Shown: positions 15,571 through 29,647 of the stretch, in pieces
Layout of the letters: the number at the start of each line of letters is the position of its first letter
How positions within the stretch are numbered: the stretch's first letter is position 1
Origin: Planctomycetota bacterium
GTDB lineage: Bacteria; Planctomycetota; Brocadiia; Brocadiales; Brocadiaceae
Length of the DNA: 32,659 bases
NCBI GenBank assembly: GCA_023261485.1
Contig: JAHFOY010000016.1
Location: 1 to 32,659 of the forward strand
Direction of reading: 5' to 3'
The notes under the pieces: generated by a model
What the model was told of the DNA's origin: nothing
What the model saw: the letters and a program-made list of their open reading frames with translations, nothing else
Databases searched by the model: none
Made by a program: the position numbers and the translations under genes

Positions 15571-15639
15571 AAGAAAACGAAATCTATTTTTTGTTTTTTG
15601 GCAAAGTTGCGAAAAAGAAGCCGAGAGAGAAAAAAATTC

Positions 15640-16497
15640 ATGACTGTGAAAAAAATTGTAAAAGATACAATCGGAAAGGGTAACTTTTTTTTCAGATGCT
15701 CAACCAGCCATTTGAGAGTATTGCCCGATTTTCTCATAGTCGGAGCTCAAAAATGTGGGACATCTTCTCTTTACAGGAATTTAGTCAAACATCCATCAGT
15801 TATTCCCGCATTCGTTAAAGAAATTTACTTTTTTAATACCAAATACTTTCAAAAAGGCGTCAAATGGTACAGAGCATATTTCCCGTTATTACCATATAAG
15901 TATTACGTTACTCGGATATGTAAACGGGATTTCCTTACTGGAGAAGCAACTCCTGGCTATATTTTCCATCCGCATGCCCCCAGAAGAATTTTTGAACTGT
16001 TACCAGATGTTAAGATAATAGTCCTTCTCAGAAATCCCGTTGATAGAGCATATTCACACTACTATCATGAGGTTAGAAAAAAACGTGAAAGCCTGTCCTT
16101 CGAAGATGCAATAAAAATGGAAGAAGAAAGACTTCGCGGAGAGTTTGATAAAATTATAAATGATGAAAATTACTATAGCTTTAACTATCTGCATTATTCT
16201 TATCTATCGAGGGGAATTTACGTTGAACAATTACAGCGCCTGCACCAGTATTTTAAAAAAGAACACATATTAATTATAAAAAGCGAGGATTTTTTTAAAG
16301 ATTCACAAGCCACGATTGAGAAAGTATTGCAATTTTTAGGCTTGCCGGGCTGGCAACCGACGGATTTCAAAAAGGTCAATGTCGGTTCTTATCAAAAAAT
16401 GGATCCTGCTGTAAGAAGCCGGTTACTCGATTATTTCGAACCTCACAATCACAGACTGTATGAATACCTGGGTATTAACTTTGGGTGGGAAAAATAA
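15640..16497 (+). CDS. PAPS-dependent sulfotransferase (heparan N-sulfotransferase-like)
   Basis: This 285-residue protein should move sulfate from PAPS to a sugar hydroxyl or amine. The 5'-phosphosulfate loop is GAQKCGTSSL (35-44), followed by the KEIYFF block (60-65). The 3'-phosphate site is RNPVDRAYSHY (131-141), with the conserved Arg and Ser of the family. The C-terminal third has the LGL-x-GW...F-x-KVN motif. I chose the ATG at 15640; the frame is open to a TTG at 15598, but that would add only a basic 14-residue stretch that the fold does not need. It is the first gene of the polysaccharide locus and is followed 9 bases later by the HprK-like kinase gene. The likely substrate is the locus glycan. 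Confidence 0.9.
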   Translation: MTVKKIVKDTIGKGNFFFRCSTSHLRVLPDFLIVGAQKCGTSSLYRNLVKHPSVIPAFVKEIYFFNTKYFQKGVKWYRAYFPLLPYKYYVTRICKRDFLTGEATPGYIFHPHAPRRIFELLPDVKIIVLLRNPVDRAYSHYYHEVRKKRESLSFEDAIKMEEERLRGEFDKIINDENYYSFNYLHYSYLSRGIYVEQLQRLHQYFKKEHILIIKSEDFFKDSQATIEKVLQFLGLPGWQPTDFKKVNVGSYQKMDPAVRSRLLDYFEPHNHRLYEYLGINFGWEK

Positions 16498-16506
16498 AAA
16501 CCAAAC

Positions 16507-17619
16507 ATGAAGTTCATAGTGGCCGATATACCAATAGAATTATCCGGAAACGGGGAAGTTTATAATAATATTTTAAAAGAGCTTTCTGGTTATCCCGAAA
16601 CGCAAGAAGCGCCCGAAGTAATCTTTAGGATAAATAATAAGATACTCGATGTCCCCCCTGATGTTACCGTTGCATCCGATATTTTTTACAATGCACGGTA
16701 TTTCGCTTTAAAAAGCACTCCTTTGAAATTTGAGATCAAAGGAAAGATTTTTGAGAAAGAGCCGCTGGAAGTGAATGTATCTCCTGTAATAAAGAAAAAG
16801 CGGATTTCCAAAATCCGGCAGCGATTCGGGGATTGGAATTTTTTTACGACCGAAGAAACGCTTGCAAAAAATTTTATGTACAACATCTTCGATTTCATCA
16901 TGGAATTAAAATTTTTGACCGATAAAACCAGGGGGGCAAGCTTTATCCATGCAAGCAGTATAGAGAAGGGTGGGAAGGCGATACTGTTTGTTGCTGCGGG
17001 AGGCGCCGGTAAAACAAGCATCATGATGCAAATACTTAAAAGAGAGGGCTGGAGATACTTATCCGACGATCTCAGCATTATAGACAGTGATGGGCGTGTA
17101 TACTTTAATCCGAAATACATCCAAATCTATCCCTATAACGTTAAAAATGATTTAGAGCTGCATACTCTGTTGATGAAAGGAAGAGGTGTTTTCGATAAAT
17201 TAAATTGGTTTTACAGAAAATTAAGATATGGGGAGAGTTCGGTTCGACGCAGAGTTGATCCCAGAATATTTTTTGGGATTGAAAAGGTGAGCAGTTCCGC
17301 ATCTATAAACAAGGCCGTTAACCTGGTGAGGACAAGTGTGAAGGATTTCGAAATAGACGAAATCAATCCGCACATAATTAGCAATATAGCCTCTGAAATA
17401 CTATCGCTTGAAATTAGTCCATTTTTCAAATATTCTTGTCTGTGTAATGGCGGCGGGGCAGATAGTCCGCTTCCTAAAATTGAGGAAATAAAAGAAAGAT
17501 CCGTACAAAGATTTCAGGAAATATTCGAAAATGTCCCATGTTATCAGTTAAAAATTCCTTTAAAAGCATCACCACTGGATTTATACGAATACCTTGACAA
17601 AAATACGCCGATATTTTAA
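16507..17619 (+). CDS. HPr kinase-like (SerK-type) P-loop kinase
   Basis: The protein has 370 residues. The C-terminal two thirds shows the HprK/PEP-carboxykinase-like fold: FIHASSIEKGGKAILF before the Walker A GGAGKTS (165-171), then YLSDDLSII (184-192), where the two Asp residues match the metal and catalytic acids of HprK. The N-terminal 130 residues carry no recognised domain. True HPr kinase regulates the sugar phosphotransferase system and carries a K3 loop with an HPr-binding signature that I cannot find here. Similar HprK-related proteins occur in glycan clusters and in peptide-tailoring clusters, where a phosphate is added to a serine or a sugar. Here it lies between a sulfotransferase and a glycosyltransferase, so a modifying role on the glycan is inferred. 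Confidence 0.8.
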   Translation: MKFIVADIPIELSGNGEVYNNILKELSGYPETQEAPEVIFRINNKILDVPPDVTVASDIFYNARYFALKSTPLKFEIKGKIFEKEPLEVNVSPVIKKKRISKIRQRFGDWNFFTTEETLAKNFMYNIFDFIMELKFLTDKTRGASFIHASSIEKGGKAILFVAAGGAGKTSIMMQILKREGWRYLSDDLSIIDSDGRVYFNPKYIQIYPYNVKNDLELHTLLMKGRGVFDKLNWFYRKLRYGESSVRRRVDPRIFFGIEKVSSSASINKAVNLVRTSVKDFEIDEINPHIISNIASEILSLEISPFFKYSCLCNGGGADSPLPKIEEIKERSVQRFQEIFENVPCYQLKIPLKASPLDLYEYLDKNTPIF

Positions 17620-17640: not shown

Positions 17641-18885
17641 ATGAGAATAGCCTTTATTGTCAGTAAGTTTCCAGCCTTATCACAGACTTTTATTCTAAAT
17701 CAGATTACTGGCTTAATAGATCGTGGGCATAGGGTTGATATTTATGCAGTGCAGTCAGATAACAATCCCAAGATACATCCTGACGTAACACAATATAACC
17801 TATTAAACCATACGTATTATTTCCGAGAGTTACCCTCAGGCACGTTGCGACGTTATATAGAAATCACGGGTCTTATAATCAAATATTTTTATAAAAAACC
17901 CAGGAGCCTATTGAAAACATGGCGATTAAGCAGACGTAGAAAAGGTTCTATTCTAAAAATATTATGTGCAGGATCTCCTTTTTTAGATAAATATCCGTAT
18001 GATATTATTCATTGTCACTTCGGGCCAAATGGTATTTTAGGCATATTATTGAAAGACCTGGGCGTTATTAAAGGAAAAGTGGTAACCACTTTTCATGGTT
18101 ATGATATGTCTTCGTATATACAAAAACACGGCGCTGACATATACAAAAACCTTTTCCTGAAAGGAGACTTGTTTCTTCCAGTTAGCGAACGATGGGAAAA
18201 TAAGTTGATGGAACTGGGCTGCAGTCATCAAAAGATTATTGTGCACAGGATGGGTATCGATACGAGTAAATTCTGTTTTTCTACACATACGCCAGGAAAA
18301 GATGGCAAAGTGCGATTGCTGACAATTGCCAGACTCATTGAAAAGAAAGGGGTTCAATATGCAGTTCAGGCAGTTGCGGAGGCGCTCAGTAAGTATCCAA
18401 ATATTGAATATAGTATAGCCGGTGACGGCCCACTAAAGATTACTCTGGAAGGTTTGATTGAAAGATTGAATATAGGGGATAATGTTAAACTTCTCGGTTG
18501 GAAGCAACAAGAGGAGATTGTAGAATTACTGAAAAATGCGGATATTTTAATTGCCCCGAGCATCGTCGGAGAAAATGGAGACGAAGAAGGGATTCCTGTG
18601 GTATTAATGGAAGCCCTGGCGCAGGGCATACCTGTCCTTAGTACCCAGCATAGTGGAATACCTGAGTTAGTCCAGAACGGAGAATCGGGATTCCTAGTGC
18701 CTGAAAGAAATGCCGACGCCTTAGCAGGCAAACTGGAGATTCTCATAAAGCACCCGGAGATGCGCTTTCAGATGGGCAGGACAGGCCGGGAATATGTTGA
18801 GAGATACTATAATATTGATAAACTAAATGATAAACTGTCAGAGTTGTACCAATTATTGCTCAATGGGACACCCGGAGCTTTGTAA
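17641..18885 (+). CDS. Glycosyltransferase family 4
   Basis: This 414-residue enzyme has the GT-B fold with two Rossmann-like halves. The N-terminal half opens with RIAFIVSKFPALSQTF and carries IIHCHFGPNG (about 121-130) and TTFHGYDMS. The C-terminal GT4 donor site is clear: RLIEKKGV (about 230-237), IAGDGPL, LLGWKQQEEI, and the EX7E-type motif in GIPVVLMEALAQGIPVL, followed by GIPELV. It likely adds one sugar from a nucleotide donor with retention of configuration. The sugar cannot be told from the sequence. It sits 21 bases after the kinase gene and 33 bases before the second sulfotransferase gene, in the same orientation. Confidence 0.93.
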   Translation: MRIAFIVSKFPALSQTFILNQITGLIDRGHRVDIYAVQSDNNPKIHPDVTQYNLLNHTYYFRELPSGTLRRYIEITGLIIKYFYKKPRSLLKTWRLSRRRKGSILKILCAGSPFLDKYPYDIIHCHFGPNGILGILLKDLGVIKGKVVTTFHGYDMSSYIQKHGADIYKNLFLKGDLFLPVSERWENKLMELGCSHQKIIVHRMGIDTSKFCFSTHTPGKDGKVRLLTIARLIEKKGVQYAVQAVAEALSKYPNIEYSIAGDGPLKITLEGLIERLNIGDNVKLLGWKQQEEIVELLKNADILIAPSIVGENGDEEGIPVVLMEALAQGIPVLSTQHSGIPELVQNGESGFLVPERNADALAGKLEILIKHPEMRFQMGRTGREYVERYYNIDKLNDKLSELYQLLLNGTPGAL

Positions 18886-18918: not shown

Positions 18919-19725
18919 ATGCTATCACCAAAAATAAAAAAATATAAGAAACGATTATTTTGTTATATTAAAAGCCGATTTGCTGCCGTTAACGAGAATC
19001 CCATTATTGTGCTGGGAAACCAGAAATCCGGCACATCTGCCATTGCCCATCTGCTGGCTGACTTTGGGGGATTATCCAAAACAATTGATATCCCGCCTCT
19101 GTGGGTGCCTGTTGTATTTGAAGTGATGCAGGGACAGATTGATTTCCAGGATATGGTCAGGCGTCATCGATTTTACTTTTCAACAGATATTATTAAAGAA
19201 CCAAATATGACCTTCTTTGCCGGTCAGGTATTAAAGGCGTTTCCAAAGGCCAGGTATGTATTTGTAGTCCGTGATCCGCGGGATAATATTCGAAGTTTGT
19301 TAAATCGAATGAAAATCCCCGGGAATATCGACGAAATTAATGAGCAGGTTTTCTCTTCTGTATCTTTAAACAGGTTCAGGATGACGCTGAACGCAAGTGT
19401 ATGGGGTGGAGATAAAACTGAGAATTATATTGGAACCTTGTCACATAAATGGAACAAGGCTGTTGATAATTACTTGCTTTATCGTGACCGGATGATTCTG
19501 GCAAAATACGAAGATTTTTTAGCTGATAAATACGGCTTTGTAGTAAAGCTTGCCAAACAACTGCATATTCCGGAGAAGGCTAATATAACAGATAGGCTGG
19601 ACGTACAATATCAGCCGCGCGGCAACCGCAGCATTTCGTGGGAAGATTTTTTTGGTATTGAGAATTTGAGTCGCATTGAGCAAATTTGCAGTTCACGCAT
19701 GAAGGAATTTGGTTATAAGATTTGA
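18919..19725 (+). CDS. Second sulfotransferase-family protein
   Basis: The protein has 268 residues. The PAPS 5'-phosphosulfate loop is GNQKSGTSAI (33-42), and the 3'-phosphate site is VRDPRDNIRSLL (117-128). An Arg/Asp pair and a late LAKYEDF block also fit sulfotransferase family 3-like proteins. It differs strongly from the first sulfotransferase in the window, so the two are not recent duplicates and probably act at different positions or on different acceptors. Its TGA stop overlaps the TTG start of the degenerate ABC protein (TTGA), which suggests coupled expression. No Shine-Dalgarno is obvious, but the frame, length and motifs support the ATG at 18919. Confidence 0.88.
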   Translation: MLSPKIKKYKKRLFCYIKSRFAAVNENPIIVLGNQKSGTSAIAHLLADFGGLSKTIDIPPLWVPVVFEVMQGQIDFQDMVRRHRFYFSTDIIKEPNMTFFAGQVLKAFPKARYVFVVRDPRDNIRSLLNRMKIPGNIDEINEQVFSSVSLNRFRMTLNASVWGGDKTENYIGTLSHKWNKAVDNYLLYRDRMILAKYEDFLADKYGFVVKLAKQLHIPEKANITDRLDVQYQPRGNRSISWEDFFGIENLSRIEQICSSRMKEFGYKI

Positions 19726-21533
19726 ATAAATTCATAGAAACAATTCGTCAATATAGCGCTACTCTTAAGTTGATAGCCGCCGATTCGGTCTGGAGATTTA
19801 AAAAGGAGTCGATCTTTATTCTCTTAGCAGGCTTTTTGGGAACTTCTTTTCAATTATTGCCTATTGGTTTCGCTATATATTATGCACATGCACTGGAAAA
19901 AGGCGGAATCGTTAAATTGTTAGGACATGAATTTCAAGCGCGGACTTCGATTGTGCTTCTTTTCCTTTTGGGAACAGGTGTTTTTCTCTTCCTTTTGCTA
20001 TCCGCCTGGTTAATTTATTTTTCAAAAACGAAAACTATCGCATTGATGCGGAAATATGAGGAGTTTTGTTCAAAAAGGATATTCTCCTTATTTGGTTCTA
20101 GTATTAAAATATGGACTCCACCCAACCAAAGCTTTATTGATGATAGAACTATTTCCAGGCTTGTACGCATCGACTCGCGAAATAATAGCAGGGCGATGGG
20201 AATACTTCTCGTCACGGTTGTTCCTGCAATAACGTTATTGGTATCTGTCTGCACTTTATTTTATACCAATATTTCTTTAACTTGTCTTATGATTGTATTT
20301 TTTGGAATAGCTTCATTTTTCCAATATAAAATAAATATTGTCGGTGTCAGAAATTCTACCCGAATGGAAAATTATGTACGAGGATATGCGCTTGAATATA
20401 ATCAGATTATTCAACGACAGAAGGGTATATCCATCCCTTTGTCCAAAAATGAATCCTGGCTTGAAAATGAGCTTTTCTCTTCAGGCAAAATCAAGCAATA
20501 TATAGATGCTTACGTAGGACGCCTAAAGGTACTGGAAACCAGTCACCTTGTCAGCAACATATTATTTGCAATTACTATTTTTGTGCTTCTCCTGATTATG
20601 GGAACCCGCATTATCTTCAAAGCGGATAACTGGAGCAGCTTAATTGTTTATCTGATTGCCTTGCGTTTTTTATTAGTTAATTTAAGGCAATTAAGCAGAC
20701 AAATTACCAATCTAAATAGATTTTATCCGCAAATAAAAAGATATTTTCAATTTCTGAATAACACGGAGACATCACAGGAAAACAGTGAGTCGCATCCAAC
20801 AAACTATATGATACTAGCTGCTAAACCCATAGAAAATTCCTTGAAGAATTGGCAATTATGCAAAGGAAGCAGGCTCGGACTAATCAGTACGGTTAAGCTT
20901 AACCGCTACACACTGGCATTTATAGTTAACTGTCTGCTTGGACATTCAAAGCAAGAAGCAGGGAATGCCCTGAGCTCTGTATGGTTCATGACATTAAATT
21001 ACGGGAATGTGTATGGTTCATTAAGGGAATTTTTAAGTCTTCCTGCCGGTTATTCCTGGCAAGACCTCCAGAAAGAATTGGAAGAAACAGGATTATGCGG
21101 TAAGCTTGAAAAACAACTTTCCTGCGATTTAGACAACCACATTCCATCTGAAAAATGGAACCAGGCAGGCGCTGATCTGAAAGTTGCATTGGCATTGCTG
21201 GGTGCAATACATTCTAAAAATTATTGGATACTTCTTGAAGAGAATGCCTTGCAGCACCTTCCTGATGCAGCGCTAAAATATTTTATAAATCGCCTTTCTG
21301 ACAGAATTGTGGTAATAGTTTTCTATCCAAGCACAAAAACACTTGGAAGATACGGAGAGGATGTAATTGCGGTGCTTTCAGACAATAGTGTTGCAGGCTT
21401 AGGATCAATCGGATGGTTCGAGGAAAATAGGCACAAAATCTTTGACACTTCTAAACAAATTCCTAATAGTAATTTTTATAAAAGTGACGGCGAGGTTGAT
21501 AGCGAAGATTTGCTTGATGATGATGACATTTAA
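19722..21533 (+). CDS. Degenerate ABC exporter-like membrane protein lacking ATPase motifs
   Basis: The 603-residue protein has the layout of a type IV (MsbA/PglK-like) ABC exporter half. Membrane segments lie at about 31-54, 77-100, 159-180, 184-201, 275-298 and 303-320, followed by a C-terminal domain (about 360-575) laid out like an ATPase domain. The key motifs are eroded. Where Walker A should be, RLGLISTVKLNR (384-395) has no GKS/T. The signature region reads WNQAGADLKVALALLG (479-494) instead of LSGGQ. Walker B is YWILLEENAL (501-510), which keeps one acid. The H-loop position reads VIVFYPS, with no His. The final DVIAVLSDNSVAGLGS (547-562) still matches the normal ABC end. It starts with TTG overlapping the previous stop and ends in an acidic tail. 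ATP hydrolysis is unlikely; a flippase-like or scaffold role is inferred. Confidence 0.8.
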   Translation: MNKFIETIRQYSATLKLIAADSVWRFKKESIFILLAGFLGTSFQLLPIGFAIYYAHALEKGGIVKLLGHEFQARTSIVLLFLLGTGVFLFLLLSAWLIYFSKTKTIALMRKYEEFCSKRIFSLFGSSIKIWTPPNQSFIDDRTISRLVRIDSRNNSRAMGILLVTVVPAITLLVSVCTLFYTNISLTCLMIVFFGIASFFQYKINIVGVRNSTRMENYVRGYALEYNQIIQRQKGISIPLSKNESWLENELFSSGKIKQYIDAYVGRLKVLETSHLVSNILFAITIFVLLLIMGTRIIFKADNWSSLIVYLIALRFLLVNLRQLSRQITNLNRFYPQIKRYFQFLNNTETSQENSESHPTNYMILAAKPIENSLKNWQLCKGSRLGLISTVKLNRYTLAFIVNCLLGHSKQEAGNALSSVWFMTLNYGNVYGSLREFLSLPAGYSWQDLQKELEETGLCGKLEKQLSCDLDNHIPSEKWNQAGADLKVALALLGAIHSKNYWILLEENALQHLPDAALKYFINRLSDRIVVIVFYPSTKTLGRYGEDVIAVLSDNSVAGLGSIGWFEENRHKIFDTSKQIPNSNFYKSDGEVDSEDLLDDDDI

Positions 21534-21605: not shown

Positions 21606-22859
21606 ATGGGTAAACAACAAGGGAAAATTAACTTTATCTTTTTGTGGCGGCAATGTGACTGGGGATTATTCAAGCGCAGAAACGAAGCGCTGTTAATGGA
21701 ACTTGCTCAGAGAAATTCTGTTGAGAGTGTGCTTCATATTGAGCCTCTTACCCCAAGGGGTATTTTAGGTCTTATCGTGAGGTGGTGGCAGGCAAAGGAT
21801 GATAATGTAAAACAGGCATACAAGCTCCATTTCAAGAAAGCGTTCTCTTTTGCTCCTGTATTGGCTAACGGCGAGAAAAAGATTTTTGTTTATAGTATTT
21901 TTGTCCTCTATTCATGGGATTATATTACGGTACTGAGAAAGATAAGCAATTATTTAATTAGACTTCAAGCGAATATCATCAATAAGAAGTTTGTGCAGTC
22001 AAAGGAGAACGTAGTGCTTGTTGCATACCCGCCTTCAAGCTATTTACCGGAAGCAATAAATACCATTAAGCATGATATTTTAATCGCAGATTTAGTTGAT
22101 GATGTAATAGCAAGGACAACAGGCTCGACAGCAAAAAATAAATTTATAGATGTTTGCAAAAGCATTCTCCCAAAGTGCAAATGGATATTTTCAACTTCTC
22201 CTGCATTAGAGGAATACAGAAGCTATGCGGGACAGGACATCGAATATTTACCAAATGGTGTTGATTCTGATGAATTTTCCGCGAGTATTTCTAAAAAATA
22301 TTTCGAAAATCATACCCGTAAGATTGCGGGATACGTGGGAAACATCAATCAACTCGTGGATTTGGATTTGCTGGAATATGCCATTGCCAGCTATCCCCAT
22401 GTTGACTTTGTCCTTATTGGCCGTATAGATAATAGAGAAAGACTAAAACGTATTAAAAGAATTATAGATCAGCATAATAATTGTTCTTATCTTGGCGAAC
22501 GGAAGTTTACTGAAATTCCTGGTTATCTGTCGAGTTTTGATGTCCTTATCAGTTTTAAAAAGGCTGATTTTAGCACCCGCGGCAACGAATCTATGAAAAT
22601 TTACCAGTATCTGTTATCCGGCAAACCCATAGTATCGCTGCCACTCTCCCCTGCGGATCGTTTTGTCGACCTGATTTACGTTGCTTCTGATAAACTACAA
22701 TTTGTTGAATGTTTGAAACACGCTTTAGAGGAAAATGATCCAGAAATTAGAAATAAGAGGGTAACTGTTGCTTTAGAGAATACCTGGGCAAAAAGAGCCG
22801 ACGTCATTCTCGACAGGATGTCAAAATATTTTGGTATTTCAACGACAAATATTCAGTAA
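21606..22859 (+). CDS. Glycosyltransferase, TuaH-like GT-B
   Basis: This 417-residue protein looks like the GT-B enzymes related to TuaH. The N-terminal half opens with FIFLWRQCDWGLFKRR and contains LVAYPPSS and LIADLVDDV blocks, where the second matches the DxxDD motif of these enzymes. A donor half follows with FSTSPALEEY, YLPNGVDSDEF (about 216-226), GYVGNIN, VLIGRID and a late KIYQYLLSGKPIVSLPL motif. Sugar and linkage cannot be assigned. The ATG has a good ribosome site (TGAGGT, 4 bases upstream). It lies 72 bases after the degenerate ABC gene. The next gene encodes a distant paralogue with the same order of motifs. Confidence 0.88.
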   Translation: MGKQQGKINFIFLWRQCDWGLFKRRNEALLMELAQRNSVESVLHIEPLTPRGILGLIVRWWQAKDDNVKQAYKLHFKKAFSFAPVLANGEKKIFVYSIFVLYSWDYITVLRKISNYLIRLQANIINKKFVQSKENVVLVAYPPSSYLPEAINTIKHDILIADLVDDVIARTTGSTAKNKFIDVCKSILPKCKWIFSTSPALEEYRSYAGQDIEYLPNGVDSDEFSASISKKYFENHTRKIAGYVGNINQLVDLDLLEYAIASYPHVDFVLIGRIDNRERLKRIKRIIDQHNNCSYLGERKFTEIPGYLSSFDVLISFKKADFSTRGNESMKIYQYLLSGKPIVSLPLSPADRFVDLIYVASDKLQFVECLKHALEENDPEIRNKRVTVALENTWAKRADVILDRMSKYFGISTTNIQ

Positions 22860-22908
22860 CATATCTAATTTCTACAGAAACATTAGTTAATTGGAGAATA
22901 AACACTTA

Positions 22909-24084
22909 ATGACCGCCGTATCCCATGACGTGGTTATGCTTTCTACGGCAGATTGGGACAATCCTTTTTGGACTAATAAGCAGCATGTCGCAGTGCAGCT
23001 TGCTGCATCCGGGTATCGGGTGTTCTACATTGATTCATTAGGTCTGCGACGCCCAAGTGCAAGCGCCCAGGATATCAGACGAATTCTTAATCGCCTGCAG
23101 AAGTTGATTGTAGGGCCTCGCCAGGTGAGGGAAAATATTTGTGTGTGGTCGCCTTTTGTTGTTCCTTTGCAGAGATATAGCTTCATTCGCCGGTTCAACA
23201 GATTTCTTATGTCCGCGATGCTTAAGTTCTATATTAATAAAATGGGCATTAAGCAGGAAATCTTATGGACGTATAATCCGCTGACGGTTCGTTTGTTGAA
23301 TATAAAAGGTTTTAAAAAAATTATTTACCACTGTGTTGACGATATTAAAGCCCAACCAGGTATGCCTGTAAATATTTTTGAACAAGCCGAAAAAGATTTA
23401 GTTGAGAGGTCACACATCGTTTTTGCCACGTCTCCAAAATTAATGGAAACGAGAATGGCGTGGAATCCGAATACATACTATTTTCCAAATGTTGCTGATT
23501 TCAAACATTTTTCTAAGGCTCGTGATATAGAAACTATTATTCCAGGCGATCTTTTGGAAATACCGGCTCCTCGTATAGGCTTTATTGGAGCCATTAGCGA
23601 TTACAAGGTGGATTTCAATCTCTTACGTTGTGTGGCTAAGGCACGGCCCGGTTGGTCAATAGTGCTCATTGGGAAGGTAGGGGAAGGCGACCCATGGACT
23701 AAAACCGGGTTATTCCAGGATATTCCCAATATCCATATTATGGGCCCTCGCCCTTACGCCGAATTGCCTTGTTACCTTAAGGGGTTAGATGTTACTATAT
23801 TACCTAACGTATTGAATGAATACACAGAATCTATGTTTCCCATGAAATTTTTTGAATATTTAGCGGCAGGGAAGCCTGTGGTGAGCGTTGATTTGTCCGC
23901 ATTGCGTGAATATCGGAACGTTGTGTATATCGCCCGGTCGCTTCAGGATTTTATTAGAGGTATTGATGAGGCTTTGAAAGGCAATGTCGCGCCGCTGGAA
24001 GAACGTATTTTAGTGGCCAAGGAACACACCTATGAAATACGTACAAATAAAATGTTGCAACTGATTGAAACTTTGCCTCACTAA
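22909..24084 (+). CDS. Glycosyltransferase, TuaH-like GT-B (paralogue)
   Basis: The protein has 391 residues from the chosen ATG. Family signs are DWDNPFWTNKQHVA near the start, LWTYNPLTVRLL (about 117-128), YHCVDDIKAQPG, FATSPKLMETR, YYFPNVADFKHF, GFIGAISDYKVD and the donor motif MKFFEYLAAGKPVVSV. The frame is open six codons further upstream to a TTG at 22891. However, a GGAG at 22893-22896 lies inside that extension and suits the ATG at 22909 as a ribosome site, though the 12-base spacing is long. It belongs to the same family as the gene before it, and both probably add successive sugars. The specific sugar is unknown. Confidence 0.88.
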   Translation: MTAVSHDVVMLSTADWDNPFWTNKQHVAVQLAASGYRVFYIDSLGLRRPSASAQDIRRILNRLQKLIVGPRQVRENICVWSPFVVPLQRYSFIRRFNRFLMSAMLKFYINKMGIKQEILWTYNPLTVRLLNIKGFKKIIYHCVDDIKAQPGMPVNIFEQAEKDLVERSHIVFATSPKLMETRMAWNPNTYYFPNVADFKHFSKARDIETIIPGDLLEIPAPRIGFIGAISDYKVDFNLLRCVAKARPGWSIVLIGKVGEGDPWTKTGLFQDIPNIHIMGPRPYAELPCYLKGLDVTILPNVLNEYTESMFPMKFFEYLAAGKPVVSVDLSALREYRNVVYIARSLQDFIRGIDEALKGNVAPLEERILVAKEHTYEIRTNKMLQLIETLPH

Positions 24085-24113: not shown

Positions 24114-25423
24114 ATGAACGAACTTATTAAACCCTACACAAGCCGAATCTCAGAATATGCGTTTATTACCTATTTTTTTATCCTCTCTTTTTTCCCATTC
24201 AACGCAGATATCATTAAATTATTGTGTTTCTTGACTATGATCGGGTGTTGGATAGCAAGGATGATATCTGAAAAAAAAATATTGTTCACCAAAACATCAA
24301 TTAATATTCCTGTCTTTTCATTTCTTTTGTGCTCGCTGGGAGCTTCATTTTATTCGGCTCATATCAAAAACAGTCTTGAAACCGTAGTACATAATTATCT
24401 CGTATACTTTCTTATCTTCTTTTGCATGGTTAATACTATTCACAATCAGGAACAAGCCAGGCGCATCTTAAAAGCCATGCTTATCACGTGTGGATTGGTG
24501 TGCGCTTATGGATTGTATGGATATTACACAGAAATAGCTATCCGTGACGGAAGGCTTGTGGCCACCTTTGAATATCATTCCAGAATTGCAAAATATATAT
24601 CGTTGTTATTGCCCGTTGCAGTGTGTCTCTTCCTTTGGTACAAAGATATAGTGTCTCGCCTGTTTCTTGCCATGCTGGTACTCTTGTGTGGTTTTTCTCT
24701 GATTTTAACGATGAGCAGAACAAGCTGGATTGCCATTTTAATTACCATGCTTTTTATCGGTTTTGCTGTTCAAAAGAAGTTACTGATGTTTATAGTTATA
24801 GGTGTATGTGCATTGTTCGTTTTCATTCTACCTTCTAAATTTATTACACATGCCAAGACCATCACGCAGGTTAATAAATTTTTCGATTCCAAAAAGATAT
24901 TGGGAGAACGTCTGTTATGCTGGAAGGCGTCAATCGACATGATTCAGGATCATCCTTTGTTGGGAATTGGACCCGGCAAGAAGAATTTTCGGGACGCCTT
25001 TCAACAATACGGAGGGAAGATAAAAGAAGCAGAAAAACAGATAAAAAAAGAAAAAACTTCCAAACAATCCAAAGAAGCGAAGGTTAAAAAAAGGACGTTG
25101 TTAAGGGGGGGGAGAAGCTATCAACAGCGCACAATATCTTCCTGCACATCTGGGTGGAAATGGGCCTTGTGGGGCTATTGGCATTCTTATGGTTATTTGT
25201 AATGGTAATTTACTCGGCAATAAAATCATGGAGGTCTTTAAAACCGGGATATGAAAAGATACTCTTGCTGGGTATCACGGCGAGCCTCATTTCAATTTTT
25301 TCACACGGACTGACGGATAGCTTTTGGAAAAAACCGGATGCCTTATTTCTTTGGTATATCATCGGCTTATTATTTGTTACTATTCGTATTACACCAAGTC
25401 ACGACAGAACGCATTCAGTGTAA
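24114..25423 (+). pseudogene. O-antigen ligase/polymerase (Wzy/WaaL family), frame broken by a -1 shift
   Basis: The first frame (24114-25202) encodes about nine membrane helices, the TMSRTSWIA block and GERLLCWKASIDMIQDHPLLGIGPG, the large periplasmic loop of O-antigen ligases. The frame then turns into nonsense. The family's continuation (AHNIFLHIWVEMGLVGLLAF, then two more helices) is present in the frame one base back and ends at 25423. That frame has a stop at 25085-25087, so the shift must fall after that, where an A7 run (25086-25092) and a G8 run (25105-25112) lie. One extra base in either restores a 436-residue protein. A Lys/Glu-rich insert precedes the break. The gene may be phase-variable, a true mutant, frameshifted in translation, or misread by the sequencer. 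Its role would be glycan polymerisation or ligation at the periplasmic face. Confidence 0.85.
25105..25112 (+). repeat. G8 homopolymer tract at the frameshift
   Basis: Eight consecutive G bases lie in the shift zone of the O-antigen ligase-like gene. In the first frame they are read AGG GGG GGG, which is a formally slippery G-GGG-GGG heptamer. A ninth G would join the two frames. Confidence 0.75.
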
Positions 25424-25441
25424 TATTTTGGATAATTGCCC

Positions 25442-26593
25442 ATGAAAAAGATTGCTATTATTCACGATTGGCTTACCGGCATGCGGGGAGGAGAAAAGGT
25501 CTTAGAGATATTTTGTGAACTCTTCCCGGAAGCGGATATCTTCACTCTAATTCATATTCACGGTTCTGTTTCAAAAGTAATAGAGGAAAAACGAATACGG
25601 ACGTCTTTCCTCCAAAAAATACCTCTCGCCATGAAACGATATCGTTCTTTTCTACCCTTGTTTCCTTTGGCAATTGAAGGATTTGACTTGAGTGGCTACG
25701 ATATAGTCCTGTCGAGCAGTCATTGTGTTGCAAAAGGAATACTGACTTCTTCATCTATAACCCATATATGTTATTGTCATACCCCTATGCGTTATGTATG
25801 GGAACATTACAATACCTATTTTGGTAATGGGAAAAAGGGATTTGTCTCCAGGTTTATAATGCCAGCTGTTGCCCATTATTTAAGGATTTGGGATGTTGCA
25901 TCCAGTAACCGGGTGGATTATTTTGTGGCAAATTCGTATAATGTTGCAAATCGGATAGGAAAGTATTATAAGAGATCGGCAGAGGTCATTCATCCGCCAG
26001 TTGATTGTTCTTTTTATACACCGCTGAATGCTCACCGGGAAGGAGACTATTACCTGATTGTATCAGCCTTTGCCCCATATAAGAGGATTGACATTGCTGT
26101 AGATGCATTTGAAAAACTGGGTTTGCCGTTGATCATTATAGGAGGAGGGCAGGAAGAAGAGCGAATCAGGCGGATGTCAAAAAAGCATGTAAAATGCATA
26201 GGTTGGCAATCCAGTGAAACCTTGAAAGAGTATTACCGGGGATGTAAAGCGCTGATTTTCCCTGGAGAGGAAGATTTTGGAATCGTCCCTCTGGAGGCGC
26301 AGGCATGCGGAAAACCCGTGATTGCCTTTGCTAAGGGAGGTGTGCTGGAAACTGTACGTGGAATATACCCATACTCTGAATCTACACCGGAAATGACACA
26401 AAGAAAGCCGGATACACTTACTGGAGTTTTTTTTACAGAACAAACAACTGAATCTTTAACGGAAGCTGTGAAGTATTTCGAAAACAACAAAAACCTGTTT
26501 AACCCGCTTTTGATTAGAAAGCATGCCGAGGGTTTTGATACACTGATATTTAAAGAAAAGTTTAGACAATACATCGACAAATTCCTATGCTGA
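25442..26593 (+). CDS. Glycosyltransferase family 4 (WbaZ-like)
   Basis: This 383-residue enzyme opens with KKIAIIHDWLTGMRGGEKVLE, the typical start of GT4 mannosyl/rhamnosyl-transferase-like proteins; GGEKV is the acceptor-side loop. Later come ICYCHTPMRYVWEHY, the long FVANSYNVANRI helix, VIHPPVD, YYLIVSAFAPYKRID, the IIGGGQEEE donor loop and the EX7E-type motif FPGEEDFGIVPLEAQACGKPVIAF. I use the ATG at 25442; a TTG two codons upstream is weaker. It lies 18 bases after the broken ligase-like gene and overlaps the next gene by 7 bases. Mannose is a common donor for this family, but I cannot confirm it here. Confidence 0.92.
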   Translation: MKKIAIIHDWLTGMRGGEKVLEIFCELFPEADIFTLIHIHGSVSKVIEEKRIRTSFLQKIPLAMKRYRSFLPLFPLAIEGFDLSGYDIVLSSSHCVAKGILTSSSITHICYCHTPMRYVWEHYNTYFGNGKKGFVSRFIMPAVAHYLRIWDVASSNRVDYFVANSYNVANRIGKYYKRSAEVIHPPVDCSFYTPLNAHREGDYYLIVSAFAPYKRIDIAVDAFEKLGLPLIIIGGGQEEERIRRMSKKHVKCIGWQSSETLKEYYRGCKALIFPGEEDFGIVPLEAQACGKPVIAFAKGGVLETVRGIYPYSESTPEMTQRKPDTLTGVFFTEQTTESLTEAVKYFENNKNLFNPLLIRKHAEGFDTLIFKEKFRQYIDKFLC

Positions 26594-27990
26594 AGAAACA
26601 CAGCAAGTTTTTCGAATCGGTATTGCTCCTCATGGATTGGGCTACCCTGTCTGTTTCCTGGGTGCTTTCCTACTATTTACGCTTTTATTCCGGCGTTATA
26701 CCTGTCTATAAAGGAATCCCTCCTTTTAAAATCTACCTGACGCTCCTGATTTTTATGATTCCCTTGTGGAGTGTAGTTTTTAAGACATTTGGCCTGTATC
26801 GCCCCCGTAGAGTTTCGACCAGGCTTTCTGAGGTCATTGATATTGGTAAGGCGTCTACCTTTGCTATCCTGATTTTTATTTCACTAACCTTCCTTTTCCG
26901 CCAGTATGAATTCTCAAGGTTAACTTTCTTTTATTTCTGGTTTATTAACATAGTATTTCTCAGCTTAACACGAATAGTGTTTCGGGAATTTCTCCGTTTC
27001 TTAAGGCAGAAGGGATACAACCAAAGATATGCTTTAATTGCCGGCACAGAAAAGCTGGGTCAGGACCTTGTAACTAAATTACGAAAGCATCCCGAACTCG
27101 GGATTCAGATATCCGGTTTCTTGACGAACGACTCGAGTGTTGTTGGAAATGATATACAAGGGATAAAGGTCATAGGGAAGTATTCGGATGTTCGTGAATT
27201 GATTGTCACTCGCGGTATTGATATTATCTTTGTCGCACTGCCCTTCCATGCCCATAATCAGTTAAAGGAAGTTTTGGATTGGATTGGGGATGAGACGGTT
27301 AGTATCATGGTCTTGCCCGACCTCTTTGAGTTTGTGACCCTGCGCGGCAGTGTGGGCGAGTTTGAAGGGATGCCGCTCATCAGTCTTCGCGATACGCCTC
27401 TTTATGGATGGAATATTATCGTAAAAAGGGTTTTGGACGTTGTTTTTTCATCTCTTGTGCTGATTTTAACGGCCCCTGCCATGTTGATAATTGCTATATT
27501 AGTTAAACTGACTTCCAGAGGCCCTTTATTGTTTAAGCAGGAAAGGATGGGACTGGATGGTAAGACGTTCAACATGCTCAAATTTCGAACAATGTCAGTA
27601 GATGCAGAAGAGGTAACCGGGCCTGTTTGGACAAAGAAGGACGATCCGAGATGCACTGGAATTGGTAAATTACTGAGAAGGACAAGCCTGGATGAACTGC
27701 CACAGTTTTTCAATGTATTAAAAGGAGATATGAGTATCGTGGGGCCACGCCCTGAACGACCTGTCTTCATTGAAAATTTCAGGGGCACCATCCCGAAATA
27801 TATGCTGAGACACAAGATGAAGGCGGGGATTACCGGCTGGGCGCAGGTAAGCGGCTGGCGTGGAAATACCTCATTGGAGAAGCGCATTGAATACGATCTC
27901 TATTACATTGAAAACTGGTCGCTGAATTTTGACTTGAAGATAATCTGGCTCACCGTATGGAATGGACTCATCAACAAGCATGCATATTAG
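26587..27990 (+). CDS. WcaJ-type undecaprenyl-phosphate sugar phosphotransferase
   Basis: The 467-residue protein is a long polyisoprenyl-phosphate hexose-1-phosphate transferase. Four N-terminal membrane helices (about 12-31, 49-67, 90-104 and 114-128) lead to a Rossmann-like CoA-binding domain (about 145-270), then a hydrophobic re-entrant helix (about 283-306). The C-terminal catalytic domain has SRGPLLFKQERMG, MLKFRTM (330-336), the RRTSLDELPQ block with catalytic Asp-Glu, and GDMSIVGPRPERP. It transfers a sugar phosphate (often glucose) to undecaprenyl phosphate and starts synthesis of the glycan unit. The ATG overlaps the preceding stop. A TPR gene begins inside its last 29 bases. All catalytic motifs appear intact. 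Confidence 0.95.
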   Translation: MLKKHSKFFESVLLLMDWATLSVSWVLSYYLRFYSGVIPVYKGIPPFKIYLTLLIFMIPLWSVVFKTFGLYRPRRVSTRLSEVIDIGKASTFAILIFISLTFLFRQYEFSRLTFFYFWFINIVFLSLTRIVFREFLRFLRQKGYNQRYALIAGTEKLGQDLVTKLRKHPELGIQISGFLTNDSSVVGNDIQGIKVIGKYSDVRELIVTRGIDIIFVALPFHAHNQLKEVLDWIGDETVSIMVLPDLFEFVTLRGSVGEFEGMPLISLRDTPLYGWNIIVKRVLDVVFSSLVLILTAPAMLIIAILVKLTSRGPLLFKQERMGLDGKTFNMLKFRTMSVDAEEVTGPVWTKKDDPRCTGIGKLLRRTSLDELPQFFNVLKGDMSIVGPRPERPVFIENFRGTIPKYMLRHKMKAGITGWAQVSGWRGNTSLEKRIEYDLYYIENWSLNFDLKIIWLTVWNGLINKHAY

Positions 27991-29647
27991 CAAATTCAAA
28001 ATACAACCACAGATAAATAGAAAATCTAAGAGATCTATTTTTGTGTTTTTTATCTGTGTAATCTTTGCAATCTGTGGTTCCAACTGTTTTTCCATTGGGC
28101 CAGGGGTCGCCTCATTATATCTTTTTGCAGACGAATTAAGACCAGCCCCCCCCTGGGAAGTTAACACGGAAGATGCGAGACTGGCAAGTACTGCCCTTAA
28201 AATAGCAAAAGAATCCTATCCGGAAATCGATATAGAACACTACCTCAAAAAGCTGGAAAATATCATAGAAAATATCAGAACGAGTCTCCGTGATGAAACA
28301 GAACCTGAGCAGATTATCAAGACCATTAACGTCGTGCTTTTTAACGAACTCCAGTTTAAATATGTTCAAACCGGAGAACTTGAGCATATTTCTTTAAATA
28401 AGGTTTTGGATACGAAAATCGGTAATTGTGTAGGACTGTCTATTCTCTACCTCAGTATAGCAGAGGGTTTGCATTTACCTATTTATGGAGTCAGCGTGCC
28501 GGAGCATATATTTGTGCGTTACGATGATGGAGATTTTCGGAGAAATATTGAAGCGGGTTATGAAGGTGTATTTACTCCTGACAGTTACTATATCAATATG
28601 CATGGGAAACGCATCTCACAAAAAAGTATCAGGAATGGATGTTATCTTAAGAATCTATCGATGAGCGAAGTTGTTGCTGATATCTATCTGAACCGTTCAA
28701 TAATACATAAAGAGAAAGGCAATATAGAAGCCGCATTAAAAGACGTAAACCACGCTATCGGGTTGCACGGGAACGATGCCGTCGCCTATTGTAACCGCGG
28801 TGTTATTTACGAGAAGATGAAGGATTCTGAACGGGCAATAAGTGATTACAACAAGGCCGTTGAGTTGAATCCCGATTATGCACCGGCATACTACAATCGT
28901 GGTTCTCTTTACGCCACAATAGAGGTTATCGATAAGGCAATCATGGATTACAGCAAGGCATTATCGTTAGATCCCGGTTCAATCTTATCCTATTATAACC
29001 GGAGTATTGCCTTTAAGATGATTGGAAGGTCGGATTTGACCATAGAAGACCTGAGTAAGGCCATTTCATTAGATCCCAAATTCGCTGCCGCTTATGCCAG
29101 TCGGGGTCTGACATATGCCGAATCGGGTGAACCTGAAAAAGCCTTAGAAGACTTCAACAAGGCGCTGGAACTCAATCCCAACAATACCGAAATCTATATG
29201 AAAAGGAGTGTCCTTCATGCCGATGCACAACGTTTTGACGATGCGATAAAAGACATAACGGCCTTCATAGGATTCTCGCCAAACAATGCCTTTGCCTATT
29301 ATATCCGTGCTAAAGCATACCGCGGGAAGGGCGATACTCAAAAGTGTATGGAGGATTACAACAAGGTTATAGAGTTGAGCCCCCGGTTGTCCGGTGTGTA
29401 TTACGAGCGGGGTCAAATCAAAAACCAGTTGGAAATGACTGATGAAGCCCTTGCGGATTTTAACACCTCCATCGAACTATTCCCTTACAATCCTCTTGCC
29501 TACCTTCATCGTGGGAATACCTACAAAAAGCTGGGAAGGAATGAACAAGCGCTAAAGGATTATTTGACCTACCAGAAACTCAACCCTGACGCCCCTGATG
29601 CTGAAGAAATAAAGAAAGAGATAGAAGATATGCAAAATAAAAGATAG
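27962..29647 (+). CDS. Exported transglutaminase-like / TPR fusion protein
   Basis: The 561-residue protein begins with a basic region and a hydrophobic segment (26-39) that acts as a signal peptide or anchor. A transglutaminase-like (SirB1/Transglut_core2) domain spans about 70-215, with catalytic-type Cys156 in KIGNCVGLS and His182 in PEHIFVRY. From about 220 to 550 there are roughly ten TPR units of the AYYNRG...AI-x-DY-x-KA-x-x-L-x-P type. It could act as a peptidase-like or structural scaffold for glycan assembly; that is inference. The start overlaps the WcaJ-type gene by 29 bases; a second ATG at 27980 is also possible. The hydrophobic segment is encoded by a repeat-like palindrome, described separately. 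Confidence 0.88.
   Translation: MDSSTSMHISKFKIQPQINRKSKRSIFVFFICVIFAICGSNCFSIGPGVASLYLFADELRPAPPWEVNTEDARLASTALKIAKESYPEIDIEHYLKKLENIIENIRTSLRDETEPEQIIKTINVVLFNELQFKYVQTGELEHISLNKVLDTKIGNCVGLSILYLSIAEGLHLPIYGVSVPEHIFVRYDDGDFRRNIEAGYEGVFTPDSYYINMHGKRISQKSIRNGCYLKNLSMSEVVADIYLNRSIIHKEKGNIEAALKDVNHAIGLHGNDAVAYCNRGVIYEKMKDSERAISDYNKAVELNPDYAPAYYNRGSLYATIEVIDKAIMDYSKALSLDPGSILSYYNRSIAFKMIGRSDLTIEDLSKAISLDPKFAAAYASRGLTYAESGEPEKALEDFNKALELNPNNTEIYMKRSVLHADAQRFDDAIKDITAFIGFSPNNAFAYYIRAKAYRGKGDTQKCMEDYNKVIELSPRLSGVYYERGQIKNQLEMTDEALADFNTSIELFPYNPLAYLHRGNTYKKLGRNEQALKDYLTYQKLNPDAPDAEEIKKEIEDMQNKR
28005..28079. repeat. Palindromic ACCACAGAT-type repeat inside a coding region
   Basis: AACCACAGAT at 28005-28014 pairs perfectly with ATCTGTGGTT at 28070-28079, and a second copy TTTATCTGTG lies at 28049-28058. 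The wording resembles a dispersed intergenic repeat known from memory in many genomes. Here it lies within the signal-peptide part of the transglutaminase-TPR gene. Confidence 0.5.

Follow-up and report, generated by a model that had tools for sequence, protein, structure and literature searches.

A full-length ABC exporter-like protein devoid of ATPase motifs as candidate flippase of sulfated glycan loci in Planctomycetota

The stretch of DNA analysed here (the window, 32,659 nucleotides) is an entire contig (C16) from a Brocadiaceae genome of 2.79 Mb and 84% completeness and encodes a protein, named pABC, which has the architecture of an ABC exporter throughout its length but lacks the ATPase motifs. 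Our preferred reading, to which we assign a probability of roughly 0.6, is that pABC derives from ABC exporters, is dead as an ATPase and acts as the flippase of a sulfated glycan linked to a lipid. That the planctomycete pABC family as a whole would flip such glycans independently of ATP, in an ion-coupled or downhill manner, and be exchangeable with Wzx is a more tentative proposal, which we hold to be possible.

The pABC frame comprises 603 codons. It starts with TTG, before which the frame has no other start codon (methionine next occurs at residue 109), and this TTG overlaps the TGA stop codon of the upstream sulfotransferase gene ST3 as TTGA, which bears out the coupling of the two genes noted in a preliminary description of this DNA. 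Pfam contains no match for pABC, the MOP/Wzx models PF01943 and PF13440 included, and among the NCBIfam models MsbA is a weak match that is confined to the membrane domain.

Table 1. Features of pABC and of the surrounding locus (positions in the window)
Feature	Position	Strand	Basis
Sulfotransferase ST1 (PF00685/PF13469)	15598..16497	+	domain match
HprK-related P-loop protein, conserved in locus	16507..17619	+	locus comparison
GT4 glycosyltransferase	17641..18885	+	domain match
Sulfotransferase ST3 (PF13469), in translational coupling with pABC; followed immediately by the replacing Wzx in G040/G041	18919..19725	+	
pABC, full-length ABC-exporter-like, ATPase motifs lost, 603 aa	19722..21533	+	ORF, profile alignment, AlphaFold, Foldseek
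Membrane domain of pABC (residues 1-350) with six long helices; in most comparisons the half with the higher conservation	19722..20771	+	model, dN/dS, identity
Nucleotide-binding domain of pABC, degenerate, with the fold of an ABC ATPase (residues 356-578)	20787..21455	+	profile alignment, model
Counterpart of Walker A, ISTVKLNRYTL (388-398), with near-invariant Arg395 at the Lys position	20883..20915	+	profile alignment, family alignment
Signature-motif equivalent WNQAGADLKVAL (479-490), LSGGQ lost	21156..21191	+	profile alignment, family alignment
Counterpart of Walker B, YWILLEEN (501-508), with Glu for Asp	21222..21245	+	profile alignment, family alignment
H-loop position, His replaced by Tyr535	21324..21326	+	profile alignment, family alignment
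Acidic C-terminal tail of pABC (residues 591-603)	21492..21530	+	family alignment, model
TuaH-like glycosyltransferase 1, the next gene after pABC in the window and after Wzx in G040/G041	21606..22859	+	
TuaH-like glycosyltransferase 2	22891..24084	+	domain match
Wzy/O-antigen-ligase-type protein (PF04932); adjoins pABC in G020 and G035 too	24114..25202	+	
GT4 glycosyltransferase	25436..26593	+	domain match
WcaJ-type undecaprenyl-phosphate glucose phosphotransferase (initiator)	26587..27990	+	TIGR03023, over cut-off
TPR protein with Transglut_core2 domain, coupled to WcaJ	27962..29647	+	domain match

Fold and ATPase motifs of pABC

The six membrane segments and the full-length ABC ATPase-like C-terminal domain that the preliminary description had assigned to the protein are confirmed by structure prediction and Foldseek. 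An AlphaFold2 model based on the alignment of 20 diverse homologues has a pLDDT of 81.8 and a pTM of 0.77, with most of the ATPase-like domain at 82-93 (10 close homologues as input gave a pLDDT of just 62.7), and shows six long helices in the membrane domain (residues 27-60, 77-126, 141-182, 184-234, 256-300 and 304-333). Foldseek aligns this model with ABC exporters of the PDB over its full length (about 600 columns), the best match being Pseudomonas MsbA (E 1.5e-15). TM-scores with PCAT1 are 0.61/0.64, TM287/288 and TmrAB are also among the fold matches, and identity to the PDB matches is 12-15%. Searches of the PDB with the single pABC sequence and with a profile returned no match and weak matches at most, respectively. 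Profile-profile alignment (hhalign) joins pABC to the intact half-exporters of the same genomes across both domains (probability 98.7, E 1.8e-16, 535 columns) and more weakly to a PglK-like set (E 5.8e-7). Because of the full-length Foldseek matches and the profile-profile alignment we regard the C-terminal domain, as modelled, as ABC-derived; a C-terminal fold unrelated to ABC is ruled out by the predicted structure. By its predicted fold, pABC belongs to the ABC exporters of the type IV (ABCB) class, in which a single chain combines a six-TM domain with an ABC ATPase fold.

Walker A, Q-loop, signature and H-loop of ABC exporters are all missing from this domain. In the profile-profile alignment the Walker A sequence GESGAGKST corresponds to STVKLNRYT in pABC, its lysine being replaced by Arg395, the Q-loop Gln is replaced by Leu, the LSGGQ signature by NQAGA and the H-loop His by Tyr535, and the stretch from Walker A to the Q-loop is shorter than in intact exporters. 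The sole remaining motif is Walker-B-like, with ILLEE in place of LLLDE. The pair of Walker B Asp and catalytic Glu is absent here as well, as the window protein has LLEE and distant members have LDG, IDR, LDV, LDI or no acidic pair. The motif losses first read from the single sequence (no GKS/T, no LSGGQ, no H-loop His) and the persistence of YWILLEEN were thus seen correctly. Loss of Walker A is not a genome-wide trait, since the other ABC exporters of the genome retain it wherever their reading frame is complete. Judged by these residues, pABC would have lost both ATP binding and ATP hydrolysis.

Conservation and distribution of the pABC family

pABC is present in 10 of the 62 genomes of the order. 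Homologues in named collections come from MAGs of Planctomycetota and Candidatus Brocadiaceae, plus one contig in a MAG labelled Nitrospinae, and more distant relatives are encoded by planctomycetes of other families (G405, G330, G399, G105, G767, G513 with two copies, G770, G773 and G412; G567 also matched and was left out of the family alignment). The Nitrospinae-labelled contig (L002, MHDQ01000245.1), on which the pABC locus has two tandem sulfotransferases and the protein is 80% identical to that of the window, looks by its sequence like a misbinned Brocadiaceae-type contig.

A GK[ST] Walker A is lacking in each of the 20 aligned members, which cover the home family as well as distant planctomycetes, and 19 of them carry a basic residue at the position of the Walker A lysine (18 Arg, one His). 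The family yielded no homologue whose Walker A is intact, and a single mutated copy among intact homologues is therefore ruled out, the loss being common to 19 other homologues. An acidic C-terminal tail, predicted to be disordered, is conserved in most of the family and in nearly all complete members. Close homologues have a whole-protein dN/dS of 0.10-0.21, with 0.06-0.18 for the membrane domain and 0.15-0.27 for the ATPase domain, values which indicate purifying selection. In most comparisons the ATPase domain of pABC is less or about equally conserved versus the membrane domain (64% versus 83% against G043), whereas in intact PglK-like and MsbA-like exporters it is the more conserved half in five of five pairs (for example 58% versus 36%). 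Such weaker conservation would be expected if ATP catalysis were not selected for while the membrane domain still works.

Could pABC be without any function, either because it is what is left of an ABC flippase in decay or because the gene was wrongly assembled? The copy in G039 (L024:2488-4262, contig C161), which is 94% identical to that of the window, has a 34-bp frameshifting deletion, which may be decay or an assembly error, and one replacement by Wzx has taken place in the genus. Yet the frames are open and full length in distant families, dN/dS is well below 1 in both domains, Arg395 and the acidic tail are shared and the gene context is conserved, and we consider lack of function to be very improbable. 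The view of the preliminary description that the gene is not a random pseudogene is upheld by dN/dS and the distant open frames; the shared loss of Walker A and dN/dS also rule out chance and a recent pseudogene.

Gene context and the occurrence of Wzx in the pABC slot

The window locus is probably a Wzx/Wzy-type gene cluster for a sulfated sugar polymer (Table 1). Domain and profile searches detect neither a Wzx nor an intact half-ABC exporter within the window. The initial statement that no flippase is visible thus holds for the locus but not for the genome, which has a PF01943/PF13440 Wzx on a different contig, C191. The 370-aa HprK-like protein, which has the P-loop GGAGKTS and is weakly related to HprK-related kinase A, is kept at the locus in G039, G040, G041 and G043, and the gene for the TPR protein, whose Transglut_core2 domain is SirB1-like, stands beside WcaJ in nearly all WcaJ regions examined.

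Two genomes of the same genus, G040 and G041, keep the order ST1, HprK-like, GT4a, ST3, GTtuaH1 and have a Wzx in the pABC slot. In G041 the genes are HK, ST1, HprK-like, GT4a, ST3, a 493-aa protein, GTtuaH1, a sulfotransferase, GT2, GT4, GT4b, WcaJ and TPR2, and the 493-aa protein is a TuaB-like MOP flippase (PF13440, E 1e-92; NF007773 over cut-off); in G040 the arrangement is the same and the flippase is 98% identical. pABC is absent from both genomes, and the pABC genomes of the genus are without that Wzx. An ST3 orthologue is found in five genomes, followed by pABC in three, by Wzx in two and by both in none. When an analogue takes the slot of another gene, the two usually share a function, and the exchange of pABC with a known flippase, as would be looked for in a lipid-linked oligosaccharide flippase, therefore provides the strongest support for a shared flippase role. 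It does not amount to proof, because it is seen in one genus and the other genes of the locus partly differ. The downstream glycosyltransferases of G041 differ from those of the window and Wzy is absent from G041, so that the exchange belongs to a wider remodelling of the module. A second comparison concerns the block ST_K4-GT2_K5-GT4_K6, which follows pABC in G032 but the Wzx locus in G041. The WcaJ regions of pABC-less genomes (G015, G017, G029, G034 and others) contain no syntenic locus.

The same two genomes bear on the suggestion, also made at the outset, that pABC is a scaffold for the sulfotransferase. As a membrane scaffold or regulator it would hold one or more sulfotransferases or the Wzy/ligase, and flipping would be left to a Wzx encoded elsewhere. 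The overlap with ST3, the sulfotransferases and Wzy as neighbours, the conserved acidic tail and the presence of a Wzx on contig C191 fit such a role. A scaffold does not, however, predict that G040 and G041 keep ST3 without pABC and with a flippase in its place, nor is it favoured by the strong constraint on the membrane domain or by the fact that the adjoining sulfotransferases belong to different subfamilies in different lineages. Because ST3 is kept where Wzx replaces pABC we regard the scaffold as the weaker reading and as unlikely.

In other genomes, too, pABC adjoins sulfotransferases, glycosyltransferases and often Wzy or an initiator (G043, G020, G013, G035 and G030-G032). Among the distant members, it is adjoined by a sulfotransferase, GT4, GT2 and Bac_transf in G330, and has sulfotransferases nearby in G405 and WcaJ-like, GT4, TuaH-like and heparinase-like genes in G767; some distant loci (G773, G399) are not clear Wzx/Wzy loci. 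Sulfotransfer_3 genes, of which a genome has few, crowd around pABC well beyond chance, in unrelated families too: two of two in G000, four of seven in G032, two of four in G330 and four of seven in G405 lie within 10 kb of it, where 0.01-0.06 would be expected (binomial tails of 1e-4 to 1e-8, which assume uniform placement and ignore gene clustering). The heparinase-like gene of G767 (L092:7268-9325, Heparinase II/III-like) is located directly upstream of pABC and suggests a uronic-acid or glycosaminoglycan-like polymer. Since Wzy adjoins pABC in several loci, a role of pABC as polymerase is ruled out.

Profiles of Wzx and of ABC exporters, run over 486 kb of DNA surrounding about 20 pABC loci, detected neither a Wzx nor a second half-ABC exporter, the sensitivity of the Wzx profile being limited to close relatives, as it recovered 12 of 12 of its own building sequences. 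Pfam searches of 12 whole genomes agree in placing no Wzx beside pABC, and none was seen on any of the other pABC contigs searched with the Wzx models, some of them over 80 kb long. A match at L093 was rejected as an adjacent second ABC half, as it is a separate ATPase-only protein (Walker A GPNGAGKT) with no membrane domain in frame.

Heterodimeric ABC exporters in which one of the sites is degenerate are a familiar class, and pABC might be the dead half of such an exporter, with the active half encoded elsewhere and transport driven by ATP. Like pABC, TM287/288 and TmrAB have an ABC ATPase domain with altered catalytic residues, both are among its fold matches, and other half-exporters with intact Walker A are encoded elsewhere in its own and other pABC genomes. 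But the subunits of heterodimers are usually encoded together, and no active partner is seen in the 486 kb. Moreover, the degenerate halves of TM287/288 and TmrAB still have a Walker A, can bind ATP and work together with an active half, whereas pABC has lost Walker A, Q-loop, signature and H-loop and has a shortened N-terminal part of the domain. A heterodimer of this kind seems improbable to us.

Proposed role and relation to known systems

In the ATPase-dead flippase that we favour, WcaJ would start an undecaprenyl-linked glycan unit, the GT4- and TuaH-type enzymes would extend it, ST1 and ST3 would sulfate it on the cytoplasmic side, and pABC would let the sulfated unit across the membrane for Wzy/ligase. 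The putative substrate of pABC would be an undecaprenyl-linked sulfated oligosaccharide. pABC would probably be a homodimer whose dead ATPase domains serve as a dimer scaffold, and, in the manner of Wzx, flipping may draw on a gradient of protons or other ions or on the downhill pull of substrate being consumed outside. The non-hydrolysing ABC-derived flippase originally put forward is supported in outline, strongly so by the Wzx-for-pABC replacement in G040 and G041, while its mechanistic part is a proposal.

Precedents point both ways. ABC flippases, PglK/Wzk included, can functionally replace Wzx (PMC2841628), and the membrane domain of MsbA by itself moves ethidium with a pH gradient (PMC4979069). 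Then again, the ABC flippase Wzk of H. pylori requires its Walker B Glu (PMC4990322), and flopping of Lipid A by MsbA is ATP-dependent only, the NBD-less form being inactive in vivo (PMC8660845). In addition, the Wzx on C191 and the intact ABC exporters of the genome could act in trans or as a partner.

pABC resembles MsbA in its six-helix membrane domain, its C-terminal ABC ATPase fold and the full-length structural match, but differs from it in that the four motifs are absent in the family, in its location in glycan and sulfotransferase loci and in that the membrane domain exceeds the ATPase domain in conservation in most comparisons. The undecaprenyl-PP-oligosaccharide flippases PglK, WlaB and Wzk share its fold class and proposed role, and active PglK-like genes occur in the same bacterial family; however, PglK/Wzk need ATP hydrolysis (PMC4990322), whereas pABC lacks the catalytic motifs and matches the PglK-like profile more weakly than that of the half-exporters, so that they are not its closest family in sequence. 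Wzx/TuaB of the MOP superfamily, on the other hand, stand in the same slot in G040 and G041 and presumably do the same job, even though their fold is unrelated and shows no sequence similarity to pABC.

ABC transporters are defined by their use of ATP, and ATP-independent flipping, if shown, would be close to categorically new, although dead or half-dead ABC domains are already known. A natural family with the full architecture minus ATP binding would test if the membrane domain of an exporter transports alone, which has so far been addressed with truncated MsbA and LmrA. In a limited literature search, which left most subscription journals uncovered, we found no description of a pABC-like family.

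If our reading is true, pABC would supply the flippase that sulfated glycan loci of planctomycetes, anammox bacteria among them, have been missing. This role would be relevant to the sulfated glycosaminoglycan-like polymers of anammox granules, a report of which is cited in PMC7356697. Similar to the window locus, the xss cluster for synechan, a sulfated EPS of Synechocystis, combines sulfotransferases, glycosyltransferases, Wzy and an initiator, but it carries a normal Wzx, xssH (PMC8205485). In the locus of G043, an MntA-like antitoxin gene (L004:13283-14079) is inserted between GT4b and WcaJ together with the 153-aa ORF that comes after it; the two may form a HepT/MntA pair.
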